From Phycicoccus sp. M110.8 (GTDB lineage: Bacteria > Actinomycetota > Actinomycetes > Actinomycetales > Dermatophilaceae): a DNA stretch of 64,000 nt. The stretch lies in NCBI RefSeq assembly GCF_032464895.1, contig NZ_JAWDIC010000001.1, positions 1,426,001 through 1,490,000 of the forward strand. Reading direction: 5' to 3'. Below are positions 28,033 to 51,120 of this stretch, in pieces. The notes beneath the pieces are model-generated. The model had not been told where the DNA came from, searched no databases, and saw only the letters and a program-made list of their open reading frames with translations. Within the stretch, counting starts at the first letter, position 1. The number at the start of each line of letters is the position of its first letter. Position numbers and translations under genes: made by a program.

Positions 28033-28953
28033 TCAGTCTCCTGGGGTGGGGATGGCGGAGGCGGCCTGCGCGGCCGAGCCGGAGGAGTCGAGCGCGTGCA
28101 CCACGATCGCCACCCGGCGGTTGCGGGCGCGGCCGGCGGCGGTGGCGTTCGACGACAGGGGGCGCTGGTCGGCATACCCGGCGGCGGACACCTGCGCGCT
28201 CGGGACGCCGCGGGTAAGCAGGTACCGGAGCACGGTCGTGGCGCGCTCGGTCGACAGCTCCCAGTTCGAGGCGTAGCGGCCGCTGACCGGGACGTTGTCG
28301 GTGTGGCCCTCGACGGTCAGTGCGTTGGGCAGCCCGCGCAGGGCCGGCGCCACGGCGTCGAGGACCTTGCGGCCCTCGGGGCGCAGGGTCGCCTCGCCGA
28401 GCTCGAAGAGCACCCGGTCGGTGACGACGTTGACGACGAGGCCGTGGTCGCGCTGCTCGAACTGCACCGCGCCGGACAGGCCCCGGGACGCCAGCGACGC
28501 GGAGATCCGGCGCTGCACGGCAGCGAGGTCCTCGCGCTGGCGCGCGGCCTGCGCCCGGCCCGCGGCCTGCGCGGCCGCCTGGGCCGCCGCCTGGGCGGTC
28601 GACCCGCCCGGCCGCGGGATGATCGGGTCACCCGTGGCGGACGGGTTCGGGGTCGCGGCGTGGCCGTCGACCGCGGCCTGGGGGCTGCCGTCGAGGATGC
28701 CGGTCGAGCTGGTCTTGCTGGCCGGCTCGCCGAAGTACTGGTCGAGGCCGTTGGACAGCGCGATGAGCTTGGCCTGGTCGACCTGGCTGATCGCGAACAG
28801 GACGATGAACAGCGCCATGAGCAGGGTGATCATGTCGGCGTAGCTGAGCAGCCACCGCTCACTGTTCTCGTGGCCCTCCTCGTGGTCCTCCTCCACGACC
28901 CGGCGACGGCCCGCGCCGCCGGCCCGTGCGCCGCCCGACCGGCCGGTGCTCAC
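28033..28953 (-). CDS. motB: Flagellar motor stator protein MotB
   Basis: MotB anchors the proton-driven stator to peptidoglycan. The 306-residue product has the single membrane helix with the essential Asp in YADMITLLMALFIVLFA, then a plug/linker with an Ala/Gln-rich coiled stretch (AQAAAQAAAQAAG). A C-terminal OmpA-like domain follows (LPNALTVEGHTDNVPVSG, NWELSTERATTVLRYLL, AGRARNRRVAIVV). The GTG start overlaps the motA stop. Confidence 0.95.
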   Translation of the reverse strand: MSTGRSGGARAGGAGRRRVVEEDHEEGHENSERWLLSYADMITLLMALFIVLFAISQVDQAKLIALSNGLDQYFGEPASKTSSTGILDGSPQAAVDGHAATPNPSATGDPIIPRPGGSTAQAAAQAAAQAAGRAQAARQREDLAAVQRRISASLASRGLSGAVQFEQRDHGLVVNVVTDRVLFELGEATLRPEGRKVLDAVAPALRGLPNALTVEGHTDNVPVSGRYASNWELSTERATTVLRYLLTRGVPSAQVSAAGYADQRPLSSNATAAGRARNRRVAIVVHALDSSGSAAQAASAIPTPGD

Positions 28954-29726
28954 GCCGCCTCCGTCGCCGCCGGCGCGTCGACGTCCGCGGACAACACGGC
29001 CAGGAGCCGCTTCTCGACGACCCGCGGACTCGTGCCGGACTGCACGGCCAGCACGCCCTCGAGCAGCAGCTCGAGGTGGGCGCACTCGACCTCGCTGAGC
29101 CGCTTGAGCTTGTTGGACAGGGGAAGCCAGATCGCGTTGGCGCTCATGACGCCCCAGAGGGTCGCGACGAACGCGCTGGCGATGAGCTCGCCCAGCGTCT
29201 CCGGCGAGGACAGGTTGCCGAGGACGTGGATGAGGCCGATGACGGTGCCGATGATGCCGATCGTCGGGGCGTAGCCACCCATGTCGGCGAAGAACTTGAT
29301 GCCGAGGCGGTCCTGGCGCTTCTTGGAGGAGATGCGGGCGTGCAGGACGTCGTGGATCTCGTCGGCGTCGGTGCCGTCGACGGTCATCTCGATGCCCTGG
29401 CGCAGGAACGGGTCCTCGATGCCGCGCAGGCGCTCCTCGAGCGCGAGCAGGCCCTCACGGCGGGCGGTGTCGGCCATGGAGACCAGGTCCGCGACGGCGG
29501 CGTCGCTCTGCGGCGCCTTGGCGGTGAAGGCGCGGGCGACCTGCTTGCCGACGACCTTGACGTCGGACATGAACCCGCCTGCGACGGCTGCTCCGAGGGT
29601 GCCGACGATGACGAGCACGATCGGCGGCAGCAGCAGGATCGAGGTGGGCGAGGCGCCCTCCATGATCAGCGACGCGAAGACCGCACCGAGGACGACGACG
29701 ATCCCGGCGAGGGTGGCCAGCTCCAT
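28950..29726 (-). CDS. motA: Flagellar motor stator protein MotA
   Basis: MotA forms the stator ring that drives the rotor using proton flow. The 258-residue protein has four membrane segments and the conserved cytoplasmic loop (FLRQGIEMTVDGTDADEIHD). The TM3-TM4 region is visible as GYAPTIGIIGTVIGLIHVLGNL, split as GYAPTIGIIGT and VIGLIHVLGNL, and FVATLWGVMSANAIWLPLSN. The ATG lies one base after the flbD stop; the longer open frame upstream is shadow. Confidence 0.95.
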   Translation of the reverse strand: MELATLAGIVVVLGAVFASLIMEGASPTSILLLPPIVLVIVGTLGAAVAGGFMSDVKVVGKQVARAFTAKAPQSDAAVADLVSMADTARREGLLALEERLRGIEDPFLRQGIEMTVDGTDADEIHDVLHARISSKKRQDRLGIKFFADMGGYAPTIGIIGTVIGLIHVLGNLSSPETLGELIASAFVATLWGVMSANAIWLPLSNKLKRLSEVECAHLELLLEGVLAVQSGTSPRVVEKRLLAVLSADVDAPAATEAA

Positions 29727-29727
29727 G

Positions 29728-29979
29728 TCAGCGGTCGCTGTCCTGGACGACGTGCAGCCCCGGGCGCGAACCCGGCCCGGCGTGCACGTGCTCGGCGGCC
29801 GCGAGGACGGAGGCCCGGAAGTCGCGCACCTCGCGGACGACCTCGTCGACCGACTCCACCACCACGTAGCGGGCACCACCCACGAGCGTGATCACGGTGT
29901 CGGGCGTGGCCTCGACGCGTTCGATGAGGTCGGGGTTGAGTGCAAAGCAGGTGCCGTTACGGCGCGTGACAGCGATCAT
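29728..29979 (-). CDS. flbD: FlbD-family flagellar protein
   Basis: An 83-residue protein of the small FlbD family found next to motA in Gram-positive flagellar operons. It contains the core MIAVTRRNGTCFALNPDLIE, followed by RVEATPDTVITLVGGARYVV and a C-terminal acidic helix. Its molecular role is not established. It is the first gene of the flbD-motA-motB-fliL unit, preceded by AAGGACGG (29994-29987) and a leader hairpin with GGA in the loop. Confidence 0.88.
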   Translation of the reverse strand: MIAVTRRNGTCFALNPDLIERVEATPDTVITLVGGARYVVVESVDEVVREVRDFRASVLAAAEHVHAGPGSRPGLHVVQDSDR

Positions 29980-30005
29980 GGCGGGTCCGTCCTTGGTTGT
30001 GCAGA

Positions 30006-30026
30006 GCGCGACCATCCGTGGCGCGC
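30006..30026 (-). promoter_or_regulatory. Leader hairpin of flbD-mot, CsrA-site candidate
   Basis: In the mRNA, GCGCGCC (30026-30020) pairs with GG and CGCGC (30013-30006) with one bulged U. The six-base loop is ACGGAU (30019-30014). A second GGA lies in the Shine-Dalgarno AAGGACGG. CCACGGAUGG is identical to the stem-loop core in the fliC leader. Confidence 0.55.
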
Positions 30027-30032
30027 ACCCCT

Positions 30033-30061
30033 CCTATCGGCAGGCGCCCGGCATACCTGAG
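30033..30061 (-). promoter_or_regulatory. FliA-type promoter for flbD-motA-motB-fliL
   Basis: Minus strand CTCA (30061-30058), 16 bases, then GCCGATAGG (30041-30033). It is identical in both boxes and spacing to the fliC and flhA promoters. The spacer contains one copy of the abundant octamer GTATGCCG. The predicted leader is about 47 bases. Confidence 0.8.
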
Positions 30062-41684: not shown

Positions 41685-42086
41685 TCAGCGGCCCAGCCCG
41701 ATCGCCTGCTGGTATGCCGCGGTGGCGCGCTCGACGACGGCGAGGTTCGCCTGGTAACCGCGCTGGGCCATGATCAGCTGCGACATCTGGTCGGCGAGGT
41801 CGATGTCCGGCAGCCGCACGTAGCCCTGGGCGTCGGCCAGGGGCGAGTCCGGCTGGTAGGTCATCCGGCCCTGGGCGTCGCCGAACTCGGCACCCGCCAC
41901 GCGCACCCCGTCGGTGCCGCCGTAGTTGGCGGCCTCGGCGACGACGTACCGCGCGCGGAACGCCTCGCCGCTCGTCGGGCGGACCGTGTTGACGTTGGCG
42001 ATGTTGTCGGCGACGGCGTCCAGCCACGTGCGGTGCAGCACCAGGCCGGTGCCGGCGGTGTCGATGGCGCCGAACGGCCCGGCCAT
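41685..42086 (-). CDS. flgC: Flagellar basal-body rod protein FlgC
   Basis: A 133-residue proximal rod protein. It has the N-terminal [20 protein letters not shown], a central [20 protein letters not shown] and the C-terminal motif [20 protein letters not shown]. The last helix, [10 protein letters not shown], is typical. Its start shares one base with the flgB stop (TGATG). Confidence 0.95.
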
Positions 42087-42445
42087 CAGGAGGCCCCGCC
42101 CGCGGCGATGCGCAGCCGTGCGAAGTGGTCGGTCATCGCCTGCACGCCGAGCTGGTAGGCGAGGCCGGTCTCGGTGCCGGCGAGGGTCTCCTCGTCGAGG
42201 TTCACGTTGTTGCCGTCGGTCCGGGTGGGGGCCATCGAGCGCTCTGTTGTCACGGGTGCGTCACCGGCGTCCTCGCCGTCGGAGATCGCGGCGAGCAGGC
42301 TGGACTCGAAGTCGACCCGGCCCGCGAGGAACTGCGGGGTGTCGACGTTGGCGACGTTGTCGGCGATGGTCCGCTGACGCAGCGACAGGCCGCTCAGCGC
42401 GTGGCCGAGGGCGCGCAGCGTCGCGTCGCCGATGAGGTCGGTCAT
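42086..42445 (-). CDS. flgB: Flagellar basal-body rod protein FlgB
   Basis: A 119-residue proximal rod protein with RTIADNVANVDTPQFLAGRV, VDFESSLLAAISDGED and the C-terminal LAYQLGVQAMTDHFARLRIA. It is the first gene of the flgB-to-flgE operon. AGGAG lies 4 bases before the ATG. A FliA-type promoter and a GGA-loop hairpin precede it within the 200-base gap after flgL. Confidence 0.94.
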   Translation of the reverse strand: MTDLIGDATLRALGHALSGLSLRQRTIADNVANVDTPQFLAGRVDFESSLLAAISDGEDAGDAPVTTERSMAPTRTDGNNVNLDEETLAGTETGLAYQLGVQAMTDHFARLRIAAGGAS

Positions 42446-42527
42446 GGCACTCCTGGATGGCGGTCCGTCGCACCGTGGTGCCACGAACCAGTCGGGGGCG
42501 TGGTGCCACCCGTCCCTGGCGGCGTCC

Positions 42528-42541
42528 GGCCATCCATGGCC
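42528..42541 (-). promoter_or_regulatory. Leader hairpin of flgB, CsrA-site candidate
   Basis: In the mRNA, GGCC-AUGGAU-GGCC (42541-42528) puts GGA in a six-base loop. The hairpin lies at the expected 5' end of the transcript. AGGAG before the flgB ATG carries a second GGA. The stem is only 4 bp, the weakest of the three leader hairpins. Confidence 0.42.
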
Positions 42542-42548
42542 TGGCGCC

Positions 42549-42577
42549 CCCATCGGCCCGTGCCGCGGGCCACTGAG
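42549..42577 (-). promoter_or_regulatory. FliA-type promoter for the flgB operon
   Basis: Minus strand CTCA (42577-42574), 16 bases, then GCCGATGGG (42557-42549), one base from the fliC -10 box. CGCGTTTGCC lies at 42607-42598, 20 bases upstream of the -35. Confidence 0.7.
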
Positions 42578-47740: not shown

Positions 47741-48568
47741 TCAGCCGAGCAGCTTGAGGACCGACTGCGGGGCGGAGTTGGCCTGCGCCAGCATCGAGAC
47801 ACCGGCCTGCTGCAGGATCTGCGACCGGGTGAAGGACGTCATCTCCTTGGCCATGTCGGTGTCGCGGATCCGGGACTCGGCAGCAGCCGAGTTCTCGGAG
47901 GCGACGCTGAGGCTGTTGATGGTGTGCTGCAGACGGTTCTGCACCGCACCGAGGTCGGCCCGGTTGCCCGAGACGGTCTTGATGGCGTTGTCGATCGCGG
48001 TGAGCGCGGTCGCCGCGCCGGCCGAGGTCGACACGTCCAGGGTGCCGGTGCCGAGGGTCGTCGTGTCGGCCTTCGCGAAGGCGACGTCGACGGTCTGGCC
48101 GCTGTTGGCGCCGATCTGGAAGGTGAAGGTGCCGGAGGTGCCACCGGTGCCGTCGAGGAGGTTCTGCCCGTTGAACTGGGTGGTGCTGGCGATGCGGTCG
48201 AGCTCGTCGTTGAGGGCCGTCACCTCGCTCTGGATGGCGGTGCGGTCGTCCGCGGTGTTCGTGTCGTTGGCCGCCTGGACCGACAGCTGACGCATGCGCT
48301 GCAGGATCGAGTGCGTCTCGTTGAGTGCGCCCTCCGCAGTCTGCACGAGGCTGATCGCGTCCTGCGCGTTCGAGGTGGCCTGGTTGAGGCCGTTGGTCTG
48401 GGCGCGCAGCTTCTCGCTGATCGCCAGGCCGGCGGCGTCGTCGGCGGCCCGGTTGATCCGCAGGCCCGAGGACAGTCGCTCGAGGCTGGTGGCCATCGAA
48501 CTCTGCGTCGAGCTCAGGTTCCGGTACGCGTTCATGGCCGCGACATTGGTGTTGATCTGAAGACCCAT
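47741..48568 (-). CDS. fliC: Flagellin FliC
   Basis: A compact 275-residue flagellin made almost only of the conserved terminal domains. The N-terminus is MGLQINTNVAAMNAYRNLSS with SLERLSSGLRINRAADDAAG. The C-terminus is SRIRDTDMAKEMTSFTRSQI and LQQAGVSMLAQANSAPQSVL. The variable surface region is reduced to about 70 residues (TGTFTFQIGANSGQTVDVAF). AAGGAGAGG lies 7 bases before the ATG. The leader carries a FliA promoter and a hairpin with GGA in its loop. Confidence 0.96.
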   Translation of the reverse strand: MGLQINTNVAAMNAYRNLSSTQSSMATSLERLSSGLRINRAADDAAGLAISEKLRAQTNGLNQATSNAQDAISLVQTAEGALNETHSILQRMRQLSVQAANDTNTADDRTAIQSEVTALNDELDRIASTTQFNGQNLLDGTGGTSGTFTFQIGANSGQTVDVAFAKADTTTLGTGTLDVSTSAGAATALTAIDNAIKTVSGNRADLGAVQNRLQHTINSLSVASENSAAAESRIRDTDMAKEMTSFTRSQILQQAGVSMLAQANSAPQSVLKLLG

Positions 48569-48596
48569 GGTGGTTCCTCTCCTTGGATGGGGTCCC

Positions 48597-48618
48597 GGGG
48601 AGCCATCCGTGGCTCCCC
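48597..48618 (-). promoter_or_regulatory. Leader hairpin of fliC, CsrA-site candidate
   Basis: In the mRNA, GGGGAGCC (48618-48611) pairs perfectly with GGCUCCCC (48604-48597) around the loop ACGGAU. One more C-G pair can extend the stem to 9 bp. Further GGA triplets lie in the Shine-Dalgarno AAGGAGAGGAA (48584-48574). This is the CsrA two-site arrangement known from flagellin leaders. Confidence 0.65.
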
Positions 48619-48645
48619 GCGTCGGCCCAGGGGGTCGACACCGGC

Positions 48646-48674
48646 CCTATCGGCCGGGCCGAGCCGTCCCTGAG
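48646..48674 (-). promoter_or_regulatory. FliA-type promoter for fliC
   Basis: Minus strand CTCA (48674-48671), 16 bases, then GCCGATAGG (48654-48646). Predicted leader length is about 70 bases to the flagellin ATG. Confidence 0.82.
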
Positions 48675-48702: not shown

Positions 48703-49575
48703 TCACTCGCCCACGACGCGGTGCGCGCGGTGGGTGCTCCCGATGCCGCCCGGGCGGCGGTTGTGGTGGCTGGCCCGGCCGGCGATCTCGGCGTAGTACG
48801 CGGCCCTGCGTCGGGCGACGACGCCGTCGGGTCGGGCCGGCACGAGCTCGGGGTCGAGGTGGGTGTTGAGCCCGTCGCGCAGCAGCCCGAGCGCCTCGGT
48901 GCGCAGCTGGGAGACGCGCGACTCGGTGACGCCGAGCTCCTCGGCCACCTCGCGGATCGGGCGGTCCTCGAAGAAGGTCCCGCGCACGACGGCCTGGAGC
49001 CGCTCGGGGAGGGCGTCGACGGCGGCGAGCAGGTAGGCGCGGCGCTCCCGCTCCACGACGAGCGACTCCGGTGTCGCGGTGGTGCGGGGCAGCAGCGCGT
49101 CGGCCTCGCCGTCCTCGCGCACGGCGTCGATCCGCAGCACGACCGACTGGTGCAGGTCCCGGCGCAGCTCGCGCAGCTCCTGGACCGACGTCCCCATCGA
49201 GGTCGCCAGCTCCTGCTCGCGCGGCTCGCGGCTCAGCCGGCCGGCGAGCGCCTCGCGGTGGGCCTCGCGCTCGCGGGCCCGGGCGCGCAGCGACCGCGAC
49301 GCCCAGTCCATCGAGCGCAGCTCGTCGAGCAGCGCGCCGCGGATGCGCCGCGCGGCATACCGCCCGAACGGCACCCCGAGGGCGGGGTCGAACGAGCGGG
49401 CGGCGGCGACCAGCGCACCGAGGCCGGCCGACGTGAGGTCGTCGAGGGCGACGTGGCCGGGGAGGCGGGCGCTGAGCGAGCGCACCTCGTAGTGCACGAT
49501 GGGAAGGTTCTCGCGGCAGGCCCGCTCGACGTCAAACTCGTCCAAACTGGCCTGAAAGCACTCAGTCGCGGTCAC
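48703..49575 (-). CDS. fliA: RNA polymerase sigma factor FliA/WhiG family
   Basis: A 290-residue sigma-28-type factor. Region 2 shows VHYEVRSLSARLPGHVALDD and SFDPALGVPFGRYAARRIRG ALLDELRSMDWASRS (a typical FliA/WhiG block). Region 3 has LATSMGTSVQELRELRRDL. Region 4 is LPERLQAVVRGTFFEDRPIR and EVAEELGVTESRVSQLRTEA. About 45 extra basic residues follow region 4. Start is the only suitable GTG (49575). It should read the CTCA-N16-GCCGAT promoters in this window. No anti-sigma FlgM gene is recognised nearby. Confidence 0.9.
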   Translation of the reverse strand: MTATECFQASLDEFDVERACRENLPIVHYEVRSLSARLPGHVALDDLTSAGLGALVAAARSFDPALGVPFGRYAARRIRGALLDELRSMDWASRSLRARAREREAHREALAGRLSREPREQELATSMGTSVQELRELRRDLHQSVVLRIDAVREDGEADALLPRTTATPESLVVERERRAYLLAAVDALPERLQAVVRGTFFEDRPIREVAEELGVTESRVSQLRTEALGLLRDGLNTHLDPELVPARPDGVVARRRAAYYAEIAGRASHHNRRPGGIGSTHRAHRVVGE

Positions 49576-49635
49576 GTGGACGAGAATTGCGCACGCCACC
49601 GAGTGCTCCCGACCACCACAGCAGGTCTCCGCCCC

Positions 49636-50323: not shown

Positions 50324-50737
50324 ATGACCGCGATGACCCTCGACGCCCCCTCCTCCACGACCACCCCTGTCGCGCACTTCGCCGAGGGCCTGGTGGGCTT
50401 CCCCGACGCGCACGACTACGCCCTGCACGGCGGCGAGGGTGGCGTCTTCGAGATGCTGCCGACCGACGGCTCGGGCCCGGGATTCGTCGTCGCCGCCGCG
50501 GGCGTCTTCTTCCCCGACTACCAGCCGGTCCTGGACGACGCCACCGCCCGGCGGCTCGGCCTCGAGGACGCCGACGACGCGCTCGTCCTGACGATCGTTA
50601 CTGTGGGGGCGGACGTCAGCGCCGCCCATGCCAACCTGCTCGCACCGGTCGTGGTCAACACCCGCTCCGGAGTCGCCGAGCAGGTCGTCCTGAGCGGCCA
50701 GGACTTCCCGCTGCGGGCGCCGCTCGGCGCGCACTGA
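50324..50737 (+). CDS. fliW: Flagellar assembly factor FliW
   Basis: FliW binds both flagellin and CsrA; free FliW removes CsrA from flagellin mRNA. The 137-residue protein has the family features HFAEGLVGFPDAHDYALHG, FFPDYQPVLDDATARRLGL, VLTIVTVGADVSAAHANLLA and APVVVNTRSGVAEQVVL. Two candidate ATGs (50324, 50333); the first has GAGGCGA upstream. It stands between flgN and csrA, the classic partner arrangement. Confidence 0.92.
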   Translation: MTAMTLDAPSSTTTPVAHFAEGLVGFPDAHDYALHGGEGGVFEMLPTDGSGPGFVVAAAGVFFPDYQPVLDDATARRLGLEDADDALVLTIVTVGADVSAAHANLLAPVVVNTRSGVAEQVVLSGQDFPLRAPLGAH

Positions 50738-50790: not shown

Positions 50791-51120
50791 GTGCTCGTGC
50801 TCAGCCGCCGTCCCCACGAGAGCTTCCGCATCGGCCACGACGTCGTGATCACCGTGCTGGAGGTCAACGGCGACAAGGTGCGGATCGGCATCGACGCGCC
50901 GTCGCACGTGCAGGTGCACCGGCAGGAGGTCTACGAGGAGGTGCAGCGGGCCAACGCCGCCGCGGCCGCCACCGAGCAGGGCGCGACGACCGACCTTGCC
51001 CGCGCCGTGCGCGGCGCCGCCGGTGACCGGGGCTCGGACCGAGCCGCAGGGACGGACGACGCCGCGACGTCGGCCGAGCCGGAGGAGCCAGGGCAGCCGG
51101 GCGCCGCTCCGGGGGCCTGA
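50791..51120 (+). CDS. csrA: Carbon storage regulator CsrA with extended C-terminus
   Basis: CsrA binds GGA-containing hairpins in mRNA leaders. The N-terminal 55 residues are a clear CsrA: MLVLSRRPHESFRIGHDVVI, then TVLEVNGDKVRIGIDAPSHV and QVHRQEVYEEVQRANA. A further roughly 50 residues, rich in Ala, Asp, Gly and Glu, follow, making 109 residues against the usual 60-75. GTG start with AAGGAGCCGG upstream. Last gene of flgN-fliW-csrA. Confidence 0.93.
   Translation: MLVLSRRPHESFRIGHDVVITVLEVNGDKVRIGIDAPSHVQVHRQEVYEEVQRANAAAAATEQGATTDLARAVRGAAGDRGSDRAAGTDDAATSAEPEEPGQPGAAPGA

Follow-up and report, generated by a model that had tools for sequence, protein, structure and literature searches.

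The fliC leader is very likely a two-site CsrA target

Our comparative analysis identifies the leader of the flagellin gene fliC in Phycicoccus sp. M110.8 as very likely a two-site target of CsrA (probability about 0.87). The basis of this reading is shown directly: the leader has two sites with a defined spacing, the sites are conserved, the stem covaries, csrA and fliW are present, and csrA co-occurs with flagellin across the order. CsrA binding, the direction of control and the action of FliW are inferred, and we have no binding or expression data.

The window, meaning the whole 64,000-nucleotide stretch of DNA that we analyzed, encodes a 275-residue flagellin (fliC, 47741..48568, (-), ATG at 48568; Pfam Flagellin_N, 6.5e-51, and Flagellin_C, 7.9e-29) whose nearest named relatives, from Austwickia and Mobilicoccus, are 67-72% identical. 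By sequence reading and a pattern scan of the window, we located a promoter at 48649..48674 (-), with CTCA at 48674-48671, a 16-nt spacer and GCCGAT at 48654-48649, which we take to be FliA-type from its resemblance to the consensus. Directly upstream of fliC lies the reading frame of a FliA-like sigma factor (48703..49614, (-), start undetermined; Pfam Sigma70 regions 2, 3 and 4). The leader contains a hairpin (48597..48618, (-)) of sequence GGGGAGCC-ACGGAU-GGCUCCCC, with 8 base pairs plus a possible A-U pair and its loop at 48610-48605; this hairpin, conserved and covarying in relatives, is the probable CsrA site 1. The Shine-Dalgarno (SD) sequence AAGGAGAGGAA (48574..48584, (-)), read in the sequence, holds an ANGGA motif and is the probable site 2, with 26 nt between the loop GGA and the SD GGA. 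The leader folds at -41.1 kcal/mol (z -2.24; 3/200 shuffles fold equally well), and the hairpin appears in the minimum and centroid structures alike. It is also the best match in the window to the R1 model (57.3 bits), in which this same leader is included. No Rfam family exceeded its curated cut-off at the leader, where twelve sub-threshold matches included none with E <1.

Both putative regulators are encoded nearby on the opposite strand: fliW (50324..50737, (+); Pfam FliW, 1.6e-26; a relative of FliW in PDB 5dmb, E 2.7e-10) precedes csrA (50791..51120, (+); Pfam CsrA, 9e-25; a relative of PDB 1t3o and 5dmb_D) by 53 bp, and a genome-wide search found a single copy of csrA. The CsrA sequence contains V42-H43-R44, residues of functional relevance, and N55, a putative FliW contact; a text search of the relevant paper found no mention of N55 in this role. 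An earlier sequence-only reading had noted the FliA-type promoter, the hairpin with its ACGGAU loop and the GGA in the SD, all of which are present in the sequence. That reading placed csrA and fliW 2-3 kb from fliC; both are indeed close, with starts measured at 1.8 kb (fliW) and 2.2 kb (csrA).

The hairpin loop is conserved and its stem covaries

We detected flagellin matches in 105/396 genomes of the order, and oriented 122 upstream regions from 98 of them. We kept 121, excluding L200 from all leader counts as it lacks a flagellin start. The other seven matched genomes (G064, G148, G157, G182, G185, G225 and G378) had no usable N-terminus and contribute no leader, and some further flagellin copies were left out. 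A strict hairpin, defined as an ANGGAN hexaloop on >=4 bp within 100 nt upstream, is present in 105/121 fliC leaders, against a mean of 1.4 and a maximum of 5 in 100 dinucleotide-shuffled rounds. Two of the 105 lie at the SD (18-19 nt) and the others at 39-89 nt; the remaining 16 leaders keep the loop motif, though their stem is imperfect. The sequence-only reading held that the idea would fall if the loop GGA were not conserved in close relatives. It is conserved: [AG]NGGAN occurs in 121/121 leaders, 34-66 nt upstream of the start, a count in which GGA is fixed by the picking of loops.

The same loop emerges when its letters are left unconstrained. Hexaloop hairpins of >=5 bp at -80..-20 occur in 85/121 leaders; counting the 15 commonest loops, which cover 80/85, no fewer than 71 of the 85 are ANGGAN. 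Positions 1, 3, 4 and 5 are A in 74, G in 78, G in 81 and A in 77, while the last base is free (T 39, C 34, A 7, G 5). Read as a middle triplet, GGA is found in 75 leaders and the runner-up, GGC, in 5. Conservation is far higher in the loop than in the stem.

Aligning the leaders for covariation around a fixed GGA loop, as the sequence-only reading had proposed, gave a clear signal: among 55 representatives stem covariation was 0.493, compared with 0.145 for shuffled and <=0.161 for slid controls, and 7/8 stem pairs change on both sides somewhere. All four loop-near pairs are standard in at least one leader of 35/37 genera, again with GGA fixed by loop picking and with the L125 loop set at its ACGGAT motif. 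The leaders are kin, and these counts are therefore not independent. As a comparison we used fliD, for which 43/61 supplied loci yielded a start; just 1/43 fliD leaders carries a strict hairpin.

The second site is conserved as well. The SD is ANGGA in 115/121 fliC leaders versus 18/38 GGA-holding fliD SDs, and the two GGA triplets, in loop and SD, lie 23-40 nt apart (median 30; 121 leaders). ANGGAN is the signature of RsmE ligands, and CsrA can bridge sites 10-63 nt apart, best at >18 nt (PMC7652899). Conservation, spacing and covariation thus support the two-site CsrA design proposed in the sequence-only reading, with the direction of control still inferred and no binding data available.

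Where flagellin genes stand side by side (G129:C18, G026:C2, G043:C3, G059:C3 and G321:C1), each copy inspected has a hairpin-type leader containing the loop motif, on stems that are in some cases different and in others identical. In one genome, a short flagellin-like frame of 113 residues (L248; G125:C13:127632-127581), ~470 bases upstream of fliC, has a full CsrA-type leader of its own.

csrA accompanies flagellin within the order

Within the order, csrA is found in 100/105 flagellin-matched genomes (77/80 and 23/25 in the two sets searched). Each of the five misses is an assembly split into 410 to 1060 contigs, and in two of them the flagellin match was only weak. Where the order's genomes gave no flagellin match, csrA was found in 1/55 (G012, 89% complete). 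Here csrA thus goes with the flagellum, rather than behaving as a general metabolic regulator.

Genomes without csrA provide only a thin, weak control for the link between hairpin and csrA. Two complete genomes that lack csrA and have a flagellin-like gene (G999 and G1094) show no hairpin in the leader inspected, but both genes are divergent and the start of one is uncertain. A second flagellin-like match in G1094 and weak matches in G657 and G978 were outside this comparison. In G800, which is 80% complete, the hairpin is present though no csrA was found.

In the wider class outside the order, csrA is present in 36/42 flagellin-matched genomes. Strict hairpins occur in 23/36 class-level leaders, one of them (L415) at the SD alone; this count omits the misplaced L375 (24/37 with it), as well as L409 and L412, whose matches start deep within the gene. 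In other classes of the phylum, sampled from genomes that all carry csrA, 17/30 leaders have a strict hairpin (8 of the 17 at the SD alone) and 13/30 have none. No flagellin match was found in 15/69 csrA-bearing genomes of these classes, and csrA is therefore not tied to this flagellin everywhere. Beyond the phylum, an ANGGAN hairpin is present in 41/50 Firmicutes flagellin leaders (L005-L078; four at the SD), most commonly with the loop AAGGAT (15/41), and in 6/12 spirochaete leaders (one at the SD). Because Firmicutes and spirochaetes share the design, the element is likely to be old. A tblastn search among named loci found FliW in Firmicutes and in two Arthrobacter loci.

Given its wide occurrence in Firmicutes and the lack of any match over an Rfam cut-off at the window's leader, the ANGGAN flagellin-leader element may merit its own Rfam family.

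Similar sites precede flbD-motA and, less clearly, flgB

The window contains a second FliA-type promoter, identified by pattern scan, upstream of flbD-motA (30036..30061, (-); CTCA at 30061, GCCGAT at 30041-30036). Behind it is a hairpin, GCGCGCC-ACGGAU-GGUCGCGC (30006..30026, (-)), with one bulged U, which we consider a probable CsrA site, followed by an SD, AAGGACGGA (29986..29994, (-)), with two GGA. The downstream genes are flbD, of the FlbD/SwrD family (29728..29979, (-); Pfam FlbD, 2.3e-26), and, immediately after it, the adjacent frame motA (28950-29729, (-); MotA_ExbB, 3.9e-30). The R1 model matches only weakly here (30032-29974; 14.7 bits, E 0.018 in the window). This flbD hairpin does not pass the strict stem test, and shuffled sequences fold as well as its region does (z 0.35).

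Support for this site comes from relatives. FlbD is encoded in 80/80 flagellin genomes, and a strict hairpin is present in the flbD leader of 36/80, spanning 17/36 genera (shuffles: mean 0.8, maximum 4). The loop motif, with no stem required, is found 30-75 nt before the start in 49/80 genomes, and 47 distinct flbD hairpins covary (0.380 vs 0.157 shuffled and <=0.168 slid). The loop motif is absent in families f6, f14 and f19 (0/22), and in f16 it occurs in 5/13.

In f6, f14 and f19 the flbD promoter also differs by eye, reading TTAC or TAAC with GCCGACAGT or similar (for instance L345, L327 and L371); in these families flbD has apparently switched promoter type and lost the hairpin site together.

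A third FliA-type promoter (42552..42577, (-); CTCAG at 42577, GCCGAT at 42557-42552; pattern scan) precedes flgB, a rod protein gene (42086..42445, (-); Pfam Flg_bb_rod, 7.2e-6) named by gene order and resemblance. Its leader folds with z -2.59 and has a hairpin with loop AUGGAU (42521..42548, (-)), a possible CsrA site that the R1 model matches weakly (42545-42521; 14.4 bits, E 0.021). We read a comparable arrangement before flgB in G235 (L276) and G333 (L274); a near-identical match in G094 comes from the pattern search alone. The hairpin is ~90 nt upstream of the ATG, which makes it doubtful that one bridging dimer could block the SD. These like sites suggest that, in this lineage, CsrA may also adjust further FliA-type transcripts, namely flbD-motA and, less surely, flgB.

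Proposed mechanism and alternative explanations

By analogy with Bacillus and Campylobacter (PMC7652899, PMC6529632, PMC4894983), from which binding, direction of control and FliW action are all inferred, CsrA would bind the ANGGAN hairpin loop of the fliC leader with high affinity. Its second RNA-binding face would then reach ~26 nt downstream to the SD ANGGA, so that ribosomes could not start. FliW is predicted to bind CsrA via its C-terminal part and free the fliC message, and cytoplasmic flagellin may occupy FliW, so that unexported flagellin would shut off its own synthesis. One feature counts against CsrA as the ligand: the fliC stem is long and very stable, whereas most CsrA hairpins selected by SELEX had four or fewer contiguous pairs (PMC7652899).

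We considered whether the hairpin might instead stabilise the 5' end of abundant FliA transcripts or act there as a ribosome standby structure, with no protein needed. The hairpin does precede the SD, in a leader that folds stably. However, the loop is better conserved than the stem and a stabiliser would not need ANGGAN; moreover, the hairpin accompanies csrA in the order. We regard this alternative as very improbable. Equally hard to sustain is the idea that the loop is read by a protein other than CsrA, such as FliW or an unknown one. In its favor, binding of FliW to the hag leader has been reported (PMC6529632) and fliW is near fliC in the window; against it, an ANGGAN hexaloop combined with an SD ANGGA is a known CsrA ligand, and csrA is present in one copy.

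CsrA might alternatively bind the fliC mRNA and activate or stabilise it, as it stabilises flhDC in E. coli (PMC7652899). This we also hold to be most unlikely, in that the second site overlaps the SD in 115/121 leaders, which is the repressing layout of hag and flaA. There is similarly little to recommend an element that acts at the DNA level, for example an operator palindrome located behind FliA promoters. In Actinosynnema, PhoP does bind upstream of flgB and of a flagellin gene (PMC9019756), but the reported motif, GTTCACGC, differs from the hairpin. In both fliC and flbD, moreover, the stem varies by compensating pair changes around a constant loop, whereas an operator would keep its sequence. 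A chance hairpin is ruled out by the shuffles, the unconstrained loop counts and the fliD leaders, a transcription terminator by the lack of a T run after the stem, and a known Rfam element by the lack of a match over cut-off.

FlgM was not found over the cut-off in flagellated Actinobacteria

We found no FlgM over the cut-off in any of 54 flagellated actinobacterial genomes (0/54); weak matches in 22/54, with a best E of 0.007, all fell below it. On a control list, the same search exceeded the cut-off in 3/14, and it remains possible that a FlgM-like protein of other sequence is present. The result agrees with prior work: FlgM was noted absent in Kineococcus radiotolerans, where the timing of late flagellar genes without it was raised as a question (PMC2587704), and its absence in later classes has also been noted (PMC10746217). 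A CsrA-type site on fliC, flbD-motA and possibly flgB offers a testable answer to that question.

The failure to find FlgM over cut-off leads us to infer that CsrA-FliW may be a replacement checkpoint. In the boldest form of this proposal, CsrA-FliW would hold much of the FliA regulon at an assembly checkpoint in FlgM-less Actinobacteria. Flagellin, the flbD-motA motor operon and the rod operon would share one hairpin module, placed behind their FliA-type promoters, and flagellin export, via FliW, would license translation of several operons. We hold this only tentatively and, on balance, lean against it; still, the similar hairpins before motor and rod genes suggest that one RNA-binding protein may pace several flagellum-building steps.

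Comparison with known CsrA-flagellin systems

In Bacillus subtilis, as in the window, the flagellin (hag) leader has two CsrA sites, one of them at the SD, and fliW precedes csrA (PMC7652899, PMC6529632, PMC8523840). Unlike in B. subtilis, the window's upstream site presents the loop ACGGAY on a strong GC stem, and the lineage has like sites on flbD-motA and flgB and no FlgM over the cut-off. Campylobacter jejuni flaA shares an ANGGA hairpin loop, compensatory changes in relatives, FliW as antagonist, and a lack of csrA in non-flagellated species; it differs in phylum, in having both ANGGA motifs in stem-loops, and in that fliW is not beside csrA (PMC4894983). The Clostridioides difficile fliC leader also has a predicted BS1, TGACAAGGATGT, and a BS2 at the SD, but it comes from a Firmicute and has an AAGGAT-type loop (PMC8523840).

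The closest precedent is Kineococcus radiotolerans, of the same phylum, for which CsrA control of fliC was proposed in 2008 from an SD region likened to hag BS2 (9/12 bases), together with the absence of FlgM (PMC2587704). The consulted sections of that paper contain no hairpin, conservation analysis or other CsrA targets. FliW control of CsrA has also been suggested for Actinobacteria among others (PMC4682653). The idea of CsrA control in Actinobacteria, which the sequence-only reading called hardly described, is therefore not new. A search of the open-access literature (subscription papers were outside its scope) found no report in Actinobacteria of the hairpin, its conservation, or the flbD and flgB sites. 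Within that literature, the conserved covarying fliC hairpin and the further probable targets are new. The fliC leader is a well-supported CsrA-type case, albeit without binding data, and the putative several-operon arrangement sets the window's system apart. Confirmation would extend CsrA-FliW control to a phylum in which our literature searches found no experiment.

Genome-wide search for further sites

The R1 model recovers fliC as top match in 40/40 flagellin genomes (worst best-E 4.6e-8, with many of these leaders in the model), and in 40 genomes without flagellin it finds nothing below E 9.5e-4. Below the fliC matches it picks SD-type matches in genes unrelated to flagella, and R1 alone therefore does not define a regulon. 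We used a compound pattern joining a FliA-type promoter to a CsrA-type site, written after the first examples were known. In the whole genome of the window's strain it matches exactly three loci: fliC, flbD-motA and flgB. Across the 80 genomes it gives 50 matches in 26/40 with flagellin and 0/40 without, and the reversed pattern matches in 0/80. We read 30 of the 50 loci: 8 lie before fliC, 14 before flbD (one being the window's own) and 2 before flgB; one precedes a FlhA-like and one a CheB-like protein gene, both named by eye, and 4 have nothing plausible. These last (L264, L273, L283 and L289) lack a plausible flagellar gene and are probably chance matches.

Another FliA-type promoter in the window (22075-22040, (-); CTCAGG...GCCGATAG) has no ANGGAN hairpin behind it. 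The FlhA-like gene, in G135, has both promoter and hairpin (L282). Far from fliC in two genomes, a gene for a receiver-domain protein, identified by eye (L259, G048:C2; L260, G078:C1), has a leader with a promoter-like CTCAGG...GCCGAC sequence, a hairpin with an ACGGAC loop and a GGA SD, and is a possible signalling target.
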